From: Phaeacidiphilus oryzae TH49
GTDB lineage: Bacteria; Actinomycetota; Actinomycetes; Streptomycetales; Streptomycetaceae
NCBI RefSeq assembly: GCF_000744815.1
Contig: NZ_JQMQ01000005.1
Span: forward strand, 1,992,055-2,056,054
Direction: 5' to 3'
Length of the DNA: 64,000 nt
This document shows, piece after piece, positions 33,921 to 41,572 of the stretch. The position numbers were made by a program, and so were the translations under genes. Position 1 is the first letter of the stretch. The number at the start of each line of letters is the position of its first letter. Below the pieces are notes generated by a model. The model did not search any database and was not told the origin of the DNA. It worked only from the letters and a program-made list of their open reading frames with translations.

Positions 33921-33983
33921 GCGCAGGCACCGAACGCGAACGCCGAGCGCGAACGCCAAGCGGCGAGCGCCAAGCGCGAGCGC

Positions 33984-34007
33984 CGAGCAGAATGCGCGGA
34001 ACATGCG
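33984..34007 (+). promoter_or_regulatory. Candidate response-regulator operator upstream of the ABC transporter (copy 1)
   Basis: A 24-bp motif (CGAGCAGAATGCGC followed by GGAACATGCG) stands 93 bp before the ATPase start. It contains two direct AGAAyGCGC-like repeats ten bases apart. A copy with 20 of 24 identities, all differences being transitions, lies upstream of the sensor kinase at 39748-39771. The gap 33921-34099 otherwise has no gene. Confidence 0.45.
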
Positions 34008-34099
34008 GTAACGCGGTCTGCGCGGTTTGTTCGAGCAAGATGTTCCTGCCGCCCGGCCGCTCCTAGGTTCTCCCTCGACCCACCGAGAGGAGAACCCCG

Positions 34100-35029
34100 A
34101 TGGCCGCCCAGACCGATCGGGCGACGAGCCCGCCGCCGGACACCCCCGCCGGCTCCCCCGGCTCCGCCGGCCGCGGAGCACGCATCGAACTCACCAACGT
34201 CACCCGACGGTTCACCTCGCCCTCGGGCGAGCTCTTCACCGCGATCCGCGAGGTGAACTTCACCGTCGAGCCCGGCGAGTTCTGCGCCGTGGTCGGCCCG
34301 ACCGGCTGCGGCAAGTCGACCACCCTCGGCATGGTGTCCGGGCTCGACAGCCCCAGCGGCGGCACCGTCAGGGTGGGCGGCGCGGAGGTCAAGGGCATCA
34401 CCCCGGGCGTCAGCTTCATGTTCCAGCAGGACGCCCTGCTGCCCTGGAAGACCGTGCTCGGCAATGTCGCGATGGGCCCGACCTTCCGCGGCGTCAGCAA
34501 GCAGAAGGCGCACGCGGACGCCCGCGACTGGCTGCGCCGGGTCGGCCTGGACGGCTTCGCCGACCACCACCCGCACCAGCTCTCCGGCGGCATGCGCAAG
34601 CGCGCCAGCATGGCGGCGGCACTGATCAACGAGCCGTCGATCCTCCTCATGGACGAGCCCTTCGGCGCGCTCGACGTGCAGACCAAGGCCATCATGTCCA
34701 ACGAACTCCTCGGCCTCTGGGAGGAGTTGAAGCCCAGCGTGCTGTTCATCACCCACGACCTGGAGGAGGCCGTGGCGTTGGCCGACAAGGTGGTCGTGAT
34801 GACCTCGCGTCCCGGCACCATCAAGGGCGTCTTCGAGATCGACCTGCCGCGCCCGCGCGGAGCCGTCCAGGAGATCCGCTTCGACCCGCGCTTCCTGGAG
34901 CTCCACCACCAGATCTGGGAGTCCCTGCGCGAGGAGGTCGACGCGGCCTACGCGCAGACCCAGGGCGCGGCCGCCGGCGCCGGTGCCGGCCAGGGCAGCG
35001 GAAGCGGCAGCGGAAGCGAGGGGAAGTGA
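34100..35029 (+). CDS. NitT/TauT-family ABC transporter ATPase (SsuB/TauB-like)
   Basis: This 309-residue single ABC domain has Walker A GPTGCGKSTT (about residue 70), the Q-loop in FMFQQDALLPWKTV, signature LSGGMRKRASMAAAL, Walker B ILLMDEPFGALD and switch His in FITHDLEEAVALAD. The LLPWKTV loop is typical of nitrate, sulfonate and taurine importers. The N-terminal 25 residues and a C-terminal (Gly-Ser) tail are probably disordered. It starts at ATG 34100 (GAGAGGAG upstream). The TGA overlaps the permease GTG. It is the first gene of a three-gene importer operon. Confidence 0.93.
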   Translation: MAAQTDRATSPPPDTPAGSPGSAGRGARIELTNVTRRFTSPSGELFTAIREVNFTVEPGEFCAVVGPTGCGKSTTLGMVSGLDSPSGGTVRVGGAEVKGITPGVSFMFQQDALLPWKTVLGNVAMGPTFRGVSKQKAHADARDWLRRVGLDGFADHHPHQLSGGMRKRASMAAALINEPSILLMDEPFGALDVQTKAIMSNELLGLWEELKPSVLFITHDLEEAVALADKVVVMTSRPGTIKGVFEIDLPRPRGAVQEIRFDPRFLELHHQIWESLREEVDAAYAQTQGAAAGAGAGQGSGSGSGSEGK

Positions 35030-35931
35030 GCAAGGTGGCAGAGAACCTGTCGGAGCACCAGGTCCGCTCGACGCTGCAGGCGGAGATCGACTCCGACGAG
35101 GCGACCGTCGCCGCCCGCGCCCGGCGCAGGCATCTGATGCGCCGCTGGCGGATCCTCGGCGGTCAGCTGCTCTTCGCGGTGGTGATCATCGGCGGCTGGC
35201 AGCTCTTCACCGACTGGGGAATCGTCGACGACTTCTTCGTCGGCCAGCCCAGCGGCATCGTGCACCAGGTCGTCGACTGGTTCCAGCACGGCACCGAGTT
35301 CGGTTCGATCTGGACGCAGATCGGCGTGACCATGGAGGAGGCCCTGCTGGGCTTCGTCTACGGTGTGGTCGGCGGGGTCATCTTCGGTGTGGTGCTGGGT
35401 CAGTTCCGTTTCCTGGCCGAGGTGCTGGGCCCGTTCATCAAGATCGTGAACGCGGTGCCGCGTATCGTCCTCGGCTCGATCTTCGTGGTCATGCTGGGCC
35501 TCGGCACCCCGTCCAAGGTGCTGCTGGCCTCGGTGCTGGTGTTCTTCGCGGTGTTCTTCAACGCCTTCCAGGGCGTGCGCGAGGTGGACCGCATCTTCAT
35601 CTCCAACGCCCGTGTGCTGGGCGCCTCCCGGTGGCAGATCACCCGGCACGTGATCCTGCCCTCCGCGCTGACCTGGATCACCGCCAGCCTCCACGTCGCC
35701 TTCGGCTTCTCCATCATCGGCGCGATCGTCGGCGAGGTGCTGGGCGCCCAGCAGGGGCTCGGCCTGCTCATCAGCAGCGCGCAGAACCACTTCAACCCCG
35801 ACGGCGTCTTCGGCGCGATGGCCATCATCGCCGTGATCACCCTCGTCGCCGAGGGACTGATCAGCCTGCTGGAGCGGCGCCTGCTGTCCTGGCGTCCGCC
35901 GTCCCCGGCCGAGACCAGCGCCGGCGTGTAG
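35026..35931 (+). CDS. NitT/TauT-family ABC transporter permease
   Basis: This 301-residue membrane protein starts with GTG 35026 in a GTGA overlap (GTG 35035 is an alternative). It has six helices after a cytoplasmic charged N-terminus of about 40 residues. The EAA loop is NARVLGASRWQITRHVILPS at about residues 196-215, as in SsuC/TauC. It should form a homodimeric channel with two ATPase subunits. It is followed after 105 bp by the binding-protein gene; that gap has no further ORF. Confidence 0.93.
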   Translation: MSKVAENLSEHQVRSTLQAEIDSDEATVAARARRRHLMRRWRILGGQLLFAVVIIGGWQLFTDWGIVDDFFVGQPSGIVHQVVDWFQHGTEFGSIWTQIGVTMEEALLGFVYGVVGGVIFGVVLGQFRFLAEVLGPFIKIVNAVPRIVLGSIFVVMLGLGTPSKVLLASVLVFFAVFFNAFQGVREVDRIFISNARVLGASRWQITRHVILPSALTWITASLHVAFGFSIIGAIVGEVLGAQQGLGLLISSAQNHFNPDGVFGAMAIIAVITLVAEGLISLLERRLLSWRPPSPAETSAGV

Positions 35932-36036
35932 GCGAGAAGCCGCCCCGGCACTCGGTCCCCTGAGCGCACCACCCGTTGCCACCACCGTTCGCACAGCCCG
36001 TTCACACAAAGACGTGATCCGAAGGGACGAACACCC

Positions 36037-37101
36037 ATGTCCAGCAAGAGCCGCACCAGAGTCCGCATCGCCGCCGCCGTCGTCGGCACCCTCGCCCTCA
36101 CTGCCGGGGTCAGCGCCTGCGGTGGCGCCACCACCGTGAAGAAGGGCGCCAACGGCCTGCCCACCGTCACCATGATGGTCGGCGGTATCGACAAGCAGAT
36201 CTATCTCCCCTACGAGCTGGCCCAGGGCCTCGGGTACTACAAGAAGTACGGCGTCAACATGCAGCTCAGCACCGAGACCGCGGGCGGTGTCGGCGCCGAG
36301 GACGCGATGGCCTCCGGCCAGGTCGACATGGCCGGCGCCTGGTACATCCACACCATCGACTTCCAGCAGAAGGGCAAGGACGTCGTCTCCGTCGCCCAGC
36401 TGAGCGGCGCCCCGGGCGAGCGCATCATGTGCAACCCGAAGTCCGGGGTGAAGACCCCGGCCGACTTCAAGGGCAAGTCGATCGGCGTCACCGACCTCGG
36501 CTCCGGCACCGACGACCTGGTCCGCTTCCTCGCCTCCAAGACCGGTCTGACCACCAAGGACTTCCACCGGGTCGGCGTCGGCGAGGGCTCCACCCTGCTC
36601 AGCCAGCTCCAGCAGAACCGGGTGGCCTGCGCCATCACCACCCAGCCGACCGTGAACGCGGTCGAGAAGGCCGGCGCCGGCGTGCCCACCATCGACCTGG
36701 CCACCACCGCCGGGGTGAACAAGTGGCTCGGCGGGCCGCTGCCCTCGGCCGCCGTCCTCACCCGCGCGGACTGGGTGAAGGCCAACCCGGACGCCACCCA
36801 GAAGGTGGTGGACGCCCTGGTCGCCACGATGCACTACATCGCCACCCACAGCGCCGCGGACATCGCCGCCCACCTGCCCGCCAGCTATGTGGAGAACGGC
36901 CTGACCACCAAGGCCGACTACATCAAGACGCTGACCGAGGACAAGGGCCAGTTCCTGCCGGACGGCATGATGCCGGCCAACGGCCCGCAGACCGTCCTCA
37001 ACGAGGACAAGGCGGCCGGCAACGTCTCGGGCAGCGTCGACCTGTCCAAGACCTACACCAACCAGTACGTGATCGCCGCCCACAAGAAGCTCGGCTACTG
37101 A
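36037..37101 (+). CDS. NitT/TauT-type substrate-binding lipoprotein (NMT1/THI5-like)
   Basis: The 354-residue lipoprotein has a signal peptide ending in the lipobox TAGVSAC with Cys at about residue 28. The type-II binding fold shows the family pattern: YLPYELAQGLGYYKKYGVNM early, then GQVDMAGAWY, KTPADFKGKSIGVTDLGSGT and QNRVACAITTQPTVNAVEKA. Such proteins bind sulfonates, nitrate, pyrimidine precursors or aromatic acids. Nothing here fixes the ligand, although the convergent CitA-type sensor suggests a carboxylate. The start is ATG 36037 (GAAGGGACG upstream). A hairpin follows the stop. Confidence 0.92.
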   Translation: MSSKSRTRVRIAAAVVGTLALTAGVSACGGATTVKKGANGLPTVTMMVGGIDKQIYLPYELAQGLGYYKKYGVNMQLSTETAGGVGAEDAMASGQVDMAGAWYIHTIDFQQKGKDVVSVAQLSGAPGERIMCNPKSGVKTPADFKGKSIGVTDLGSGTDDLVRFLASKTGLTTKDFHRVGVGEGSTLLSQLQQNRVACAITTQPTVNAVEKAGAGVPTIDLATTAGVNKWLGGPLPSAAVLTRADWVKANPDATQKVVDALVATMHYIATHSAADIAAHLPASYVENGLTTKADYIKTLTEDKGQFLPDGMMPANGPQTVLNEDKAAGNVSGSVDLSKTYTNQYVIAAHKKLGY

Positions 37102-37127
37102 CACCAGCTCAGCTGATAGACCGTCAC

Positions 37128-37173
37128 CACCGCTGCCGCGTCCGGGCGTTCACGCCCCGGCGCGGTAGCGGTG
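37128..37173. terminator. Bidirectional hairpin between the binding protein and the response regulator
   Basis: CACCGCTGCCGCG (37128-37140) pairs with 37161-37173 through one G-T wobble, and an inner CCGGGCG/CGCCCCGG stem (with one bulged base) extends it. The stop codon of the response regulator lies in the loop region. It serves both convergent units. Confidence 0.75.
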
Positions 37174-37896
37174 TTCCGGGCGGCCGGTGGAGCCGTAGCG
37201 GAGTTCCAGGCGGACCACGCCCTCCCGGGCCAGGTAGGAGAGGTAACGCTGGGCGGTGGCGCGGGAGACGCCGGTCAGCTCGGCCACGTCGTAGGCCGAG
37301 AGGTCGCGTCCGGCGGACCGCACGGCGTCCCGCACCAGGGCCAGCGTCGGCGCCGAGTGCCCCTTGGCCGGGACCGGCGGCAGGACGTTGGGGCGGGCCG
37401 CGTTGAAGATCGCGTCCACCTCCTCCTGGCCGTGCTCCACGGCCGGGTCGAGCGCGGCGACCCGGCGGCGCAGCTCCCGGAAGGCCGTCAGCCGCTCGGC
37501 CAGCGCGGCGAATCCGAAGGGCTTGACCAGGTAGCCGACCGCGCCCAGCTGCATCGCGGTGCGCACCGAGCCGACGTCCCGGGCGGCGGTGATCACGATC
37601 GCGTCCGGCCGCGCGGCCGCCCCGGCCGCGGCGCCGGCCTCGGCCTCGGCGTTGAGCCGGCGCAGCACGTCCAGCCCGCTGCCGTCCGGCAGGTAGACGT
37701 CCAGCAGCAGCAGTTCCGGCCGGAGGGTGTGCACCGCGTCCAGCCCGTCCTCCACCGCGGAGGCCTCGCCGACCACGCTGAAGCCCTCCACCCTCCGCAC
37801 ATAGGCGGCGTGGATCGCCCGCACCCGGAAGTCGTCGTCCACCACCAGCGTCCCGATCGCGGGGCTCGGCTCCGGTCTCACGTTCTCGCTCCTCAT
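37150..37896 (-). CDS. CitB/DcuR-like response regulator
   Basis: The 248-residue protein has a receiver domain at about residues 15-130, with acidic pocket VVDDDF, phospho-acceptor Asp in LLLLDVYLPDGSGLDVL, Thr in IVITAARD and Lys in YLVKPF. A C-terminal winged helix-turn-helix of the CitB type follows (YDVAELTGVSRATAQRYLSYL). An unusual Ala-Gly run (AEAEAGAAAGAAARP) sits in the receiver after alpha-3. The ATG at 37894-37896 overlaps the TGA of the kinase gene, so the two are coupled. It probably regulates the convergent ABC transporter. Confidence 0.9.
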   Translation of the reverse strand: MRSENVRPEPSPAIGTLVVDDDFRVRAIHAAYVRRVEGFSVVGEASAVEDGLDAVHTLRPELLLLDVYLPDGSGLDVLRRLNAEAEAGAAAGAAARPDAIVITAARDVGSVRTAMQLGAVGYLVKPFGFAALAERLTAFRELRRRVAALDPAVEHGQEEVDAIFNAARPNVLPPVPAKGHSAPTLALVRDAVRSAGRDLSAYDVAELTGVSRATAQRYLSYLAREGVVRLELRYGSTGRPEHRYRAGA

Positions 37897-39646
37897 CTCA
37901 GTATCCCCGCGCCTGTCCCCACCCCCACGCCGGTCCCGGCGAACACGCCCTCGGCGCTCTCCGGCGGCTCCGCGCCCCCCAGCGGCAACGGCAGCTCCAC
38001 CGTGAAGACCGCCCCGGGCGGGCCGGACCGGACGTCGATCCGCCCGCCGTGCCGCAGCACCAGCCGGTGCACCAGCGCCAGCCCGAGTCCCCGGCGCGCG
38101 GTGCCGCGCTCCGGCTTGGTGGACCAGCCGTCCTGGAAGATCCGCTCCATCCGGTCCAGCGGTATCCCGGGACCGTTGTCCTCGACCCGCACCAGCACCC
38201 GCCGCCCGGCGGCGTCCTCCGCCAGCCGCAGCCGCACCCGCCCGGGCCGCCGCCCGGGCCGCCGGCGCCGGCGCCGCCGCCAGAGCGGGCGCGGGCGTCA
38301 CCGTCACCGTGGCCGTCGCCGGGGGCGGAGGCCGCCGCGTCCACCGCGTTGTCCACCAGGTTGCCGACGATGGTCAACAGCCGGGAGAGATGGGCCGGCT
38401 CCTCGGAGAGCCAGGAGTCCTCGTCGAGGCTCAGCTCCACCCCGCGCTCGGCCGCGACGGTGGTCTTGGCGACGATCAGCCCGACCATGGTCGGATTGCC
38501 GATCCGCTCCCGCACCGACTCGGTCAGGGCCGGCTCAGCGCCCGCGCACTCCGTCGCGAACTCCTGCGCGGCCCCGTACTCGCCCAGCTCCAGCAGCCCG
38601 GAGAGGGTGTGCATCCGATTGGAGAACTCGTGCTGCTGGGAGCGCAGCGCGTTGGTCAGGCCCCGCACCGAGTCCAGCTCGCGCAGCAGCCCGACCATCT
38701 CCGTGCGGTCCCGTACGGTGACCACCGCGCCGAGCCGGCGCCCGTGGAGCACCACCGGCATCCGGTTGACCGCCAGGCAGTGGCCGTCGGTGAGCACCAC
38801 CAGGTCGCTGCCGGTCAGGGTGCCGTCCAGGGCGCCGCGCAGCCTGCCCTCCGGCAGGAGGTCCTCCAGCCGGCAGCCGAGCGCGCTGCCGAACCCGAGC
38901 AGCCGCCGCGCCTCGTCGTTGACCAGGCTGATCCGCTCCTGAGGGTCGAAGGCGATCACGCCCTCGCGGATGCCGTGGAGCATCGCCTCGCGGTCCTGGA
39001 GCAGCCCGGCGATCTCCTCCAGTTCCAGCCCGAAGGTGGTCCGCTTGAGGCGGCGGGCGAGCAGGGCGGAGGCGATCGCGCCGAGGGCCAGGGCGATGCT
39101 CGCGAAGAGCCCGAAGACCGGCAGCTCGCGCCAGAGCTCGTCGACCGCGTTGCTCTCCAGGATGCCGACCGACACCTCGCCGACCAGGTTTCCGTCCGGC
39201 GCGAGGAGGGGTGCCTTGCCGTTGGCCGAGCGGCCGGTGGAGCCGTTGTTGATGCCGACGTGGGGCTGCCCGTCCAGGACCGCGATCGGCTCCGTGACCC
39301 GCTTGCCGATCAGCGCCGGGTTCGGGTGGGAGTGGCGCACCCGGTTCAGGTCGATGACGACCACGTAGCGGGCCGAGGTCGCCGCAGCGTAGCGCTGGGC
39401 GGCCGTCTGGATCACCGAGTCCGGACCGTCCTCGGCCATCGCCGTGCGGATCGCGGGGTCGCTGGCGGCGGCCTCGGCGATGGACAGCGCCTCGTGCTCG
39501 TACTGCCGGTCGATCTCGGCCCGCTGGGCCAGGGCCAGCAGCACGAAGCCGATCGCCGAGGTGAGCGCCAGGATGAGCAGCTGGTTCTGCAGGATCCGGG
39601 TGGAGAGCCGCCGCTTGCCCTCCCGTCTGAACTCCCGTCCTCGCAC
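37893..39646 (-). CDS. CitA/DcuS-like sensor histidine kinase, interrupted by a frame break
   Basis: The kinase starts with GTG 39644-39646 (AGGTGG seven bases upstream; ATG 39725-39727 is an alternative). It has a membrane helix, an extracellular PAS-like sensor with the RHSHPNPALIGK motif typical of citrate/dicarboxylate sensors, a second helix, a PAS domain, a dimerisation helix (SQQHEFSNRMHTLSGLLELG) and the N-box NLVDNAVDAA. After about residue 470 this frame turns into nonsense. The remaining ATPase boxes (VRVEDNGPGIPLDRM, RGLGLALVHRLVLRHGG) lie in another frame at 37893-38237, which ends in an ATGA overlap with the response regulator. One missing base between about 38238 and 38290 would restore a single gene. 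It is either a sequence error or a true frameshift. Confidence 0.82.
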
Positions 39647-39747
39647 GTCGGCACCACCTAGTCTCACGGGGCGCGAGCCCCGTTGCCGCGCGCCTGCTGC
39701 CTCGCGATTGTCCATGCAGACGGGCATTCTGCCCAGCCCCGTCCCGT

Positions 39748-39771
39748 CGAGCAGAACGCGCAGAACGCGCG
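39748..39771 (+). promoter_or_regulatory. Candidate response-regulator operator upstream of the sensor kinase (copy 2)
   Basis: The motif CGAGCAGAACGCGC followed by AGAACGCGCG matches the element at 33984-34007 in 20 of 24 positions and contains two near-perfect AGAACGCGC direct repeats. It lies about 100 bp upstream of the kinase GTG, in the opposite orientation relative to the gene. Confidence 0.45.
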
Positions 39772-39775
39772 AAAC

Positions 39776-39813
39776 CGGCGGCCGGCGCCGCAGGTGAGCG
39801 GCGCCGGCCGCCG
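39776..39813. terminator. Hairpin terminator after the symporter gene
   Basis: A perfect 16-bp stem (39776-39791 CGGCGGCCGGCGCCGC with 39798-39813) and a 6-nt loop lie 23 bp after the symporter stop, before the kinase promoter. Confidence 0.85.
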
Positions 39814-39836
39814 TTCCGGACGGCGCGCGGGGTCGG

Positions 39837-41477
39837 CTACACCGCCCCCGCGCCGGTCAGTGCGCGGACCTCGAGCTCGGCATAGGCGTCCGGATCGGCG
39901 CTCCGCCGGGAGGTCACCGTCCCCAGCCAGCCGGCCAGGAATCCGCACGGAATGGAGACGACCCCGGGGTTCTGCAGCGGGAACCAGTGGAAGTCGACTC
40001 CGGGGAAGACCGACGAGGGGCTCCCCGAGACCACCGGCGAGAACGCCACCAGCAGCAGCGCCGGAATCAGCCCCCCGTACGTCGCCCACACCGCCCCGCG
40101 GGTGGTGAACCGCCGCCAGAAGAGGTTGAAGAGCAGCGTCGGCAGATTCGCCGAGGCGGCGATCGCGAAGGCCAGCCCCACCAGCGAGGCCACGTTCAGC
40201 TTCTGCGCGAAGAGGCTGAGCACGATCGCGATCGCGCCGACCCCGACCGCCGCGCCCCGGGCCACCGCCACCTCGTCCGCCTCGCTCGGCGTCGGCTCGT
40301 CCGCCCGGCGGAACGCGCGGGCCCACAGGTCATGGGCGAACGCCACCGAGGAGGCCATGGTCAGCCCGGCCACCACCGCCAGGACGGTGGCGAAGGCCAC
40401 CGCCGCGATGACCGCGAAGAGCACCGCGCCGCCGGTGCTGCCGGCGCCTCCGCCGAGCACCTGGGCCAGCAGCGGTACGGCGGTGTTGCCGGCCGCGTTG
40501 GACGCCCGCACCCGGTCCGCGCCGACCAGCGCCGCGGCGCCCAGCCCCAGAATGATCATCATCAGATAGAACCCGCCGACCAGGCCGATCGCCCACAGCG
40601 CGGAGCGCCGGGCGGCCCGCGCTGTCGGCACGGTGTAGAAGCGGGACAGGATGTGCGGCAGCCCGCCGGTGCCGAGCACCAGCGCGAGCCCGAGGCTGAC
40701 GAAGTCCAGCCGGTTCTGCCAGCTCCCCCCGTAGGTGAGCCCGGGGCGGAGATACGCGTCGCCGAAGCCGGAGCCGCGGGCCGCGTGGGACAGCAGCTCG
40801 GAGACGTTCCCGTGGAAGCGGATCAGCACCAGCGCGCAGAGCAGAACCGTTCCGCCGAGCAGCAGGACCGCCTTGATGATCTGGATCCAGGTGGTCGCCC
40901 GCATCCCGCCGATCGCGACGTAGACCGTCATCAGCGCGCCCACCCCGACGATCGACCAGGCCCGGGCGGCGTCGGTGTTCTGCCCGAGCAGCATCGCGAC
41001 CACGCTGCCCGCACCGACCATCTGCGCCAGCAGGTAGAAGAGCGCCACCACCATCGAGGCGACCCCGGTCGCGGCCCGCACCGGCCGCTGCCGCATCCGC
41101 ACCGAGAGGACGTCGGCCAGGGTGTACCGCCCGGTGTTGCGGACCAGTTCGGCGAGGAGCACCAGCACCACCAGCCAGCCGACCAGGAAGCCGATGGTGT
41201 AGAGCAGCCCGTCGTAGCCGTAGAGGGCGATGAGACCGGTGACGCCGAGGAAGGAGGCGGCGGACATGTAGTCGCCGGAGATGGCGAAACCGTTCTGCAT
41301 GGGGGTGAACTGGCGGCCGCCGGTGTAGTACTCCTCCGCGGCGCGGACCCGGCGGCCGGCCCAGACGGTGACTCCGAGGGTGACCAGCACCACGGCGCTG
41401 AACAGGGCGGTGGAGAGCGCCTGGTGGGCGTTGTGCGGCTGACCGCCGCCGGCTGCGGCGAGGAGGTTCGCGTGCAT
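39837..41477 (-). CDS. Sodium:solute symporter (cation/acetate symporter ActP-like)
   Basis: This 546-residue SSS-family transporter has about 13 helices. Family features are the EYYTGGRQFTPMQNGFAISG loop after helix 1, GDYMSAASFLGVTG, YTLADVLSVRMRQRPVR and LGTGGLPHILSRFYTVP. It probably imports acetate or another short monocarboxylate with Na+. The ATG at 41475-41477 is preferred. A GTG at 41576 overlapping the DUF485 stop is in frame, but the 33 codons between are poor in G/C at third positions. Upstream is a DUF485 gene, the usual partner of this symporter (YjcH-ActP in Escherichia coli). Confidence 0.91.
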   Translation of the reverse strand: MHANLLAAAGGGQPHNAHQALSTALFSAVVLVTLGVTVWAGRRVRAAEEYYTGGRQFTPMQNGFAISGDYMSAASFLGVTGLIALYGYDGLLYTIGFLVGWLVVLVLLAELVRNTGRYTLADVLSVRMRQRPVRAATGVASMVVALFYLLAQMVGAGSVVAMLLGQNTDAARAWSIVGVGALMTVYVAIGGMRATTWIQIIKAVLLLGGTVLLCALVLIRFHGNVSELLSHAARGSGFGDAYLRPGLTYGGSWQNRLDFVSLGLALVLGTGGLPHILSRFYTVPTARAARRSALWAIGLVGGFYLMMIILGLGAAALVGADRVRASNAAGNTAVPLLAQVLGGGAGSTGGAVLFAVIAAVAFATVLAVVAGLTMASSVAFAHDLWARAFRRADEPTPSEADEVAVARGAAVGVGAIAIVLSLFAQKLNVASLVGLAFAIAASANLPTLLFNLFWRRFTTRGAVWATYGGLIPALLLVAFSPVVSGSPSSVFPGVDFHWFPLQNPGVVSIPCGFLAGWLGTVTSRRSADPDAYAELEVRALTGAGAV

Positions 41478-41572
41478 GGCTGATCCCGGTCCTGTCGGTG
41501 CTGTCGGTGCTGACGGTCCTATCGGGCCTATCGGGCCTATCGGTCCGGTGTCCGCCGCCGTCGAGGCTGCGG

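Follow-up and report, generated by a model that had tools for sequence, protein, structure and literature searches.

In Lactobacillus casei, the Cit-family regulator MaeR binds three tandem direct repeats located between maeP and maeK, and its binding is increased by phosphorylation, according to the part of the report available to us (PMC5457438). In Corynebacterium glutamicum, the CitB-family pair CitA-CitB is located beside citH, in the opposite direction, and activates transport genes; in the available part of a 2012 review, the exact CitB motif is given as not yet identified, and the table shows no autoregulation (PMC3353115). Here, we analyzed 64,000 nucleotides of Phaeacidiphilus oryzae TH49 (contig NZ_JQMQ01000005.1, positions 1,992,055 to 2,056,054; hereafter, the window), in which similar 24-bp sites, A and B, lie upstream of an ABC transporter operon and of a sensor-kinase gene, respectively, a match first pointed out in an earlier note on this sequence. 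We propose, with a probability of roughly 0.87, that both sites are one tandem-repeat operator of the CitB/DpiA-like response regulator encoded between them, which would activate the transporter and its own kinase-regulator operon. If so, this would be a concrete predicted operator for CitB-like regulators of high-GC actinobacteria, and would illustrate how an operator is shared, split and retained at each end while the regulator genes move.

The locus resembles MaeK-MaeR in having a Cit-family regulator and tandem direct repeats in the intergenic region next to the kinase gene (PMC5457438, available part); as expected of a MaeR-like operator, such repeats were found upstream of both the kinase and the transporter genes. 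The MaeR repeat is TTATT(A/T)AA, present three times, whereas the repeat of the operator predicted here is GCAGAAC, with two clear copies and degenerate ones, and it occurs in high-GC actinobacteria beside a different transporter. With CitA-CitB of C. glutamicum, the locus shares an actinobacterial CitB-family pair; the targets differ, being citH and tctCBA in the part of the review at hand (PMC3353115) and, in the window, an NMT1-type ABC transporter together with apparent autoregulation. The likeness to DcuS-DcuR and DpiB-DpiA of Escherichia coli comes from protein models alone: the front part of the kinase matches the DcuS/MalK and DpiB models, and the regulator, along its entire length, matches the DcuR and DpiA models, all below the curated cut-offs. 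Among the open-access papers searched, none described, by title or the start of the abstract, this operator or a regulator of scr2736, a small RNA gene considered below.

The two sites in the window

The two predicted operators are located as follows.

33984..34007, plus strand: operator A, core 33987-34002 (GCAGAATGCGCGGAAC), upstream of the ABC transporter operon; core kept in 32 of 35 family loci
39748..39771, plus strand: operator B, core 39751-39766 (GCAGAACGCGCAGAAC), upstream of the kinase gene and inverted relative to it, as in relatives

The 24-bp match described in the earlier note was reproduced exactly: CGAGCAGAATGCGCGGAACATGCG (33984-34007) and CGAGCAGAACGCGCAGAACGCGCG (39748-39771) are identical at 20 of 24 positions, and all four differences are transitions. 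The repeat structure given there has to be corrected. Instead of direct repeats ten bases apart at both sites, the period is 9 bp (Tandem Repeats Finder, TRF: unit GCAGAACGC x 2.2 at 39751-39770), and two exact copies (AGAACGCGC twice) are present at the kinase-side site B only. Site A has one good half-site, GCAGAATGC, a degenerate second copy, GCGGAACAT, and an additional AAC (TAACG) 10 bp beyond the degenerate copy. The distance of about 100 bp to a start codon holds for site A, with 92 bp between its end and the ATG of the ABC ATPase gene at 34100; for site B, it holds relative to the likely kinase GTG at about 39646, a start that is itself predicted. Both sites are on the same strand and their genes are opposed, so that site B is inverted relative to the kinase gene.

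A match of 20/24 was reached in 4 or 5 per 1000 dinucleotide shuffles of both intergenic stretches (approximately 0.005). Compared with other tiles of the window, the site A stretch gave at best 19/24 and never 20 (580 tiles), and the site B stretch reached 20/24 in 12 of 579. Between the upstream gene and operator A there is a low-complexity tandem array with a 13-bp unit, CCGAGCGCGAACG, at 33930-33988. Because of these chance figures and the overlap with low-complexity sequence, the bare 24-bp match alone is modest evidence. A structured RNA was rejected as the cause of the match, the single-strand folds of the 24-mers being unremarkable (z -1.05 and 0.20). The Rfam scan of the window gave no match at the gathering cut-off.

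Conservation and specificity of the element

Searches of 394 genomes of the family, probably Streptomycetaceae, gave binding-protein matches in 182, of which the 36 with at least 57% identity were taken; after one fragment without ATPase was dropped, 35 loci remained (binding protein 57-71% identical), the window genus being represented by its own single genome. In this comparison of the same promoters in relatives, which the earlier note had set beforehand, the genes were generally accompanied by the motif, and the proposal of the note was not refuted: the core GCAGAACGMGCAGAAC was found upstream of the transporter with at most three mismatches in 32 of the 35 loci. A second scan, limited to 250 bases and covering both strands, detected it in 31/35 and additionally missed L091, whose site is cut by the region limits. 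The best core match was on the same strand in 35/35 loci. For the 24 divergent family loci plus L145, pairwise identity was 0.91 over the 16 operator columns, compared with 0.63 over the 20 columns upstream, 0.63 over the 44 downstream and 0.43 over the 30 further upstream.

The kinase and transporter genes are divergent in 24 of the 35 loci, the pair lies downstream in the same direction in three, and no pair is found nearby in eight. The two units of the window are convergent, as the earlier note had stated; this arrangement is unusual, the commonest being the divergent one, in which the kinase and transporter promoters have one operator copy in common (24/35).

In seven genomes (G077, G045, G036, G053, G041, G061 and G069), the kinase-regulator pair lies away from the transporter, on another contig in six and approximately 2.8 Mb away in G036. 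The unlinked pairs adjoin an MctC-type symporter gene in the same gene order as in the window. The motif that the earlier note had assigned to both promoters is present at both in every one of these genomes, with the exact site between the symporter and kinase genes (7/7) and a site with at most two mismatches on the transporter side (7/7). These genomes argue most strongly for a site that belongs to this system and not to its surroundings. A second pair in G069 (L240) carries a degenerate copy, with three mismatches, upstream of the kinase gene in the same orientation; at L241, the contig ends too near the gene for the presence of a site to be judged.

Within the window genome, the pattern GCAGAAYGMGCRGAAC has exactly two matches, sites A and B, in a test that is partly circular, the pattern having been built from both. 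Five places match with one mismatch; one overlaps site B, and the other four were rejected as extra targets, all being inside long reading frames. With at most two mismatches there are 118 places versus 43 for the reversed control, an excess probably due to in-frame coding matches. Across the 394 family genomes, 54 places in 51 genomes match TGMGCAGAAYGMGCAGAA, against two places, both in one genome, for its reversed control; the window genome is absent from the 51 because its sites begin with CG. The 54 places comprise 21 transporter or shared promoters among the 35 loci, six shared promoters that serve a paralogous transporter, whose binding protein is 42-47% identical, eight kinase promoters distant from the transporter, one place upstream of another such regulator gene (G354), one inside a reading frame (G173) and a further 17 that are weighed below. 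A looser pattern, applied to 14 selected genomes, matched 15 places, distributed over 12 genomes, and none when reversed: eight shared promoters, one transporter promoter, three kinase promoters, two places beside the small RNA Scr2736 and one (G232) upstream of a paralogous transporter, assigned by distance only.

Gene setting, promoters and mode of action

The genes and promoter features of the window, assigned by profile matches unless otherwise indicated, are the following.

34100..35029, plus strand: ABC transporter ATPase, nitrate/sulfonate/taurine type
35035..35931, plus strand: ABC transporter permease, start uncertain
36037..37101, plus strand: NMT1-like solute-binding protein
37150..37896, minus strand: CitB/DpiA/DcuR-like response regulator, proposed binder of both operators
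37893..39646, minus strand: DcuS/CitA-like sensor kinase, frame broken at about 38220-38290; likely start GTG at about 39646, from relatives and the promoter
39837..41561, minus strand: MctC-type monocarboxylate symporter, adjoining the kinase gene and a neighbour of the pair in several relatives
34064..34069, plus strand: predicted -10 box TAGGTT of the ABC operon, read from the sequence, with similar boxes at a similar distance in stacked relatives
39707..39735, minus strand: predicted kinase promoter TGGGCA-N17-GACAAT, from the window sequence and relatives
39776..39813, minus strand: strong hairpin that separates the symporter stop from operator B (folding energy of 39745-39820, -53.3 kcal/mol; z -5.51)

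The plus-strand unit is a nitrate/sulfonate/taurine-type ABC transporter with an NMT1-like binding protein. Searches with the latter yielded broad relatives only, of the NMT1, THI5 and sulfonate types, together with one exported protein of unknown role. In the minus-strand unit, an MctC-type symporter is followed by the DcuS/CitA-like kinase and the DcuR/DpiA-like regulator. The symporter passes the curated MctC cut-off (NF058657, 735.8 bits; cut-off 670), and a search for a second operator at its promoter gave no match at up to seven mismatches within 42.4-43.2 kb of the window.

The regulator coordinates given in the earlier note, 37150-37896, agree with the reading frame. The protein has the domains of a CitB/DpiA-DcuR-type regulator, Response_reg (69.3 bits; cut-off 30.2) and HTH_64 (29.5; cut-off 27), and HTH_IclR also exceeds its cut-off (29.2 versus 22); the full-length models remain below theirs (DcuR, 113.6 of 262 bits; DpiA, 108.6 of 264). 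The kinase has the sensor domains sCache_3_2 (62.4 bits; cut-off 28.4) and PAS (26.8; cut-off 22.6), with SPOB_a slightly below its cut-off (26.5 versus 28.1) and the front part alone giving 285.6 bits to the DcuS/MalK family (cut-off 520). Among 29 regulator loci chosen for comparison, the sequence SRATAQRYL, a putative recognition helix judging from the fold family, is identical in the window and in seven sampled site-bearing family regulators (L068, L070, L080, L091, L097, L232 and L240). The regulators of paralogous systems (L246, L247 and L267) have SRSTAQRYL or SRQTAQRYL, and the window genome's own regulator paralogue has SRITARRYL. At L267-L274 (eight loci, genus g9), two regulators flank one paralogous transporter, and a variant site, GCAAAACGAGCACAAC, lies between regulator and transporter.

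On the transporter side, transcription would start at about 34077, placing operator A at about -75 to -90. On the kinase side, 15 bp separate the end of the operator B core from the predicted -35 box downstream. The elements TGGGCA/TAGGCA-N16-18-CACAAT/CACACT are directed toward the kinase gene in 23 of 24 divergent relatives; the sole miss is again L091, where the region limits cut the scan and the same elements are visible in the aligned row. The kinase ATG at 39715 is directly beside the predicted -10 box and is unlikely to be the start. The hairpin at 39776..39813 is a probable terminator of the symporter gene, and the kinase gene would have its own promoter behind it.

In the mechanism that we propose, the membrane kinase would sense a ligand, probably a small carboxylate, and phosphorylate the regulator encoded between the sites, which would read the operator as half-sites GCAGAAC repeated directly in tandem every 9 bp. 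The phosphorylated regulator would bind in a head-to-tail arrangement immediately upstream of each promoter and would activate the ABC transporter operon and, by positive autoregulation, its own kinase-regulator operon. In most relatives, a single copy in the divergent intergenic region would serve both promoters. In the window lineage, the units would have been separated with one copy retained at each, so that the link would have survived the rearrangement.

The alternative that survives best, which we still consider improbable, retains the operator and the regulator and supposes repression, or action at one promoter only. Sequence alone cannot give the direction of regulation; nevertheless, the operator lies upstream of the predicted -35 box at both promoters, a position that would suit activation. 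Moreover, in the parts of the two sources available to us, transport genes are under positive control of CitB in C. glutamicum (PMC3353115), and growth on malate requires MaeR (PMC5457438).

Several observations weigh against activation by this regulator at both sites. Site A is the weaker copy of the core (two mismatches); it abuts low-complexity repeats, with its first five bases inside the array. L065 and L066, both with the pair downstream, have only degenerate transporter-side sites (four and five mismatches), with kinase-side copies at 0 and 1 mismatches, respectively. L067, a second copy of the transporter operon in G029, has no operator (five mismatches) and no kinase gene nearby. L064 lacks a kinase-side site; its kinase gene, close behind the binding-protein gene, is probably co-transcribed with the latter. 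The L209 regulator of G029 also has SRATAQRYL, yet no site is found near its gene (L239). In the window, the catalytic domain of the kinase is in a different frame from the front part, with the break at about 38220-38290 in a GC-rich stretch of the minus strand, whereas the frame is intact in 72/72 distinct relatives in which both parts were found. The break is either an assembly error or real; if real, it may leave this strain with a circuit that cannot be switched. Outside the family, 75 loci with 250 bases upstream were scanned; the core, at up to three mismatches, was found at 20 of the 55 that have the pair versus 0 of the 20 that lack it (Fisher p 0.0008; shuffle controls 13/1100 and 3/400), a contrast confounded with phylum, as all 20 loci without the pair are Proteobacteria by their titles. 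No such core was found at the other 35 of the 55, and some non-family loci, e.g., those of Arthrobacter, carry a related but different repeat. Finally, the remaining 17 of the 54 family-wide places lie beside Scr2736 and not beside this kinase/transporter system.

As a separate observation, the Arthrobacter locus L140 has, upstream of the same transporter, a variant repeat that is partly inverted, GCAGAAAACGCACAAAACGTGCACTTTTGC; near-identical forms occur in L135 and L158.

The element beside the small RNA Scr2736

In 17 of 19 fetched loci, the exact element lies close to the first 20 bases of Scr2736 (RF02831), at a distance of 25 to 106 bases.

L248-L259, L261-L263, L265, L266: Scr2736-side exact elements, 17 loci of genus g9

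These places are what a wider regulator would predict, that is, another DNA-binding protein that binds the site and for which the pair and the transporter are part of a larger set of targets: the exact element is beside Scr2736 in 17 genomes of genus g9, with no transporter or kinase gene there. We regard this as less probable than repression or single-promoter action, since most of the 54 family-wide places (35) belong to this pair, its transporter, or the paralogous pair and transporter, and since the site accompanies the pair when it is unlinked. Regulator homologues were also found in 19/19 genomes checked among those with other sites, though such homologues are common. Chance likeness of GC-rich or low-complexity intergenic sequences, suggested by a shuffle value of only approximately 0.005 for one pair and by the array at the edge of site A, was examined with shuffles, tiles and TRF and can be dismissed on the conservation in 32/35 loci and at unlinked promoters in 7/7 genomes.

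The proposed operator would predict an unexpected target, the surroundings of a conserved small RNA. The Rfam model of Scr2736 matched in all three of the 17 loci on which it was run, and the same two neighbours were present in 4/4 loci in which genes were called; in the two loci where these were checked, they are citrate synthase and a convergent heavy-metal P-ATPase (copper-type in NCBIfam). Among the best 30 Scr2736 loci (L287-L316), 28 could be anchored on the RNA start; the core was upstream of Scr2736 with at most two mismatches, in one orientation and 29 to 71 bases off, in 22 of the 28, and no such site was upstream in the other six. None of 503 control windows from the same loci had the core. 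A search of the window's own genome for Scr2736 gave no match.

Beside Scr2736, the element forms an island of conservation whose spacer varies in length; this uneven spacing argues against a simple fixed activator position. The element may serve Scr2736, a C-rich block on its opposite side, or neither. It is conceivable, although we hold it doubtful, that in genus g9 (probably Streptomyces) regulators of the CitB-like family control, besides carboxylate transport, the small RNA Scr2736 located between the citrate synthase gene and the convergent copper-type P-ATPase gene. If this were true, external acid sensing would be tied to entry into the citric acid cycle.

The block on the opposite side of the element (L254 5509-5612, minus strand, and equivalents) is conserved, C-rich and hairpin-like, resembling an unannotated RNA; its best Rfam match besides Scr2736 is weak (sX13, 18.8 bits; cut-off 50).

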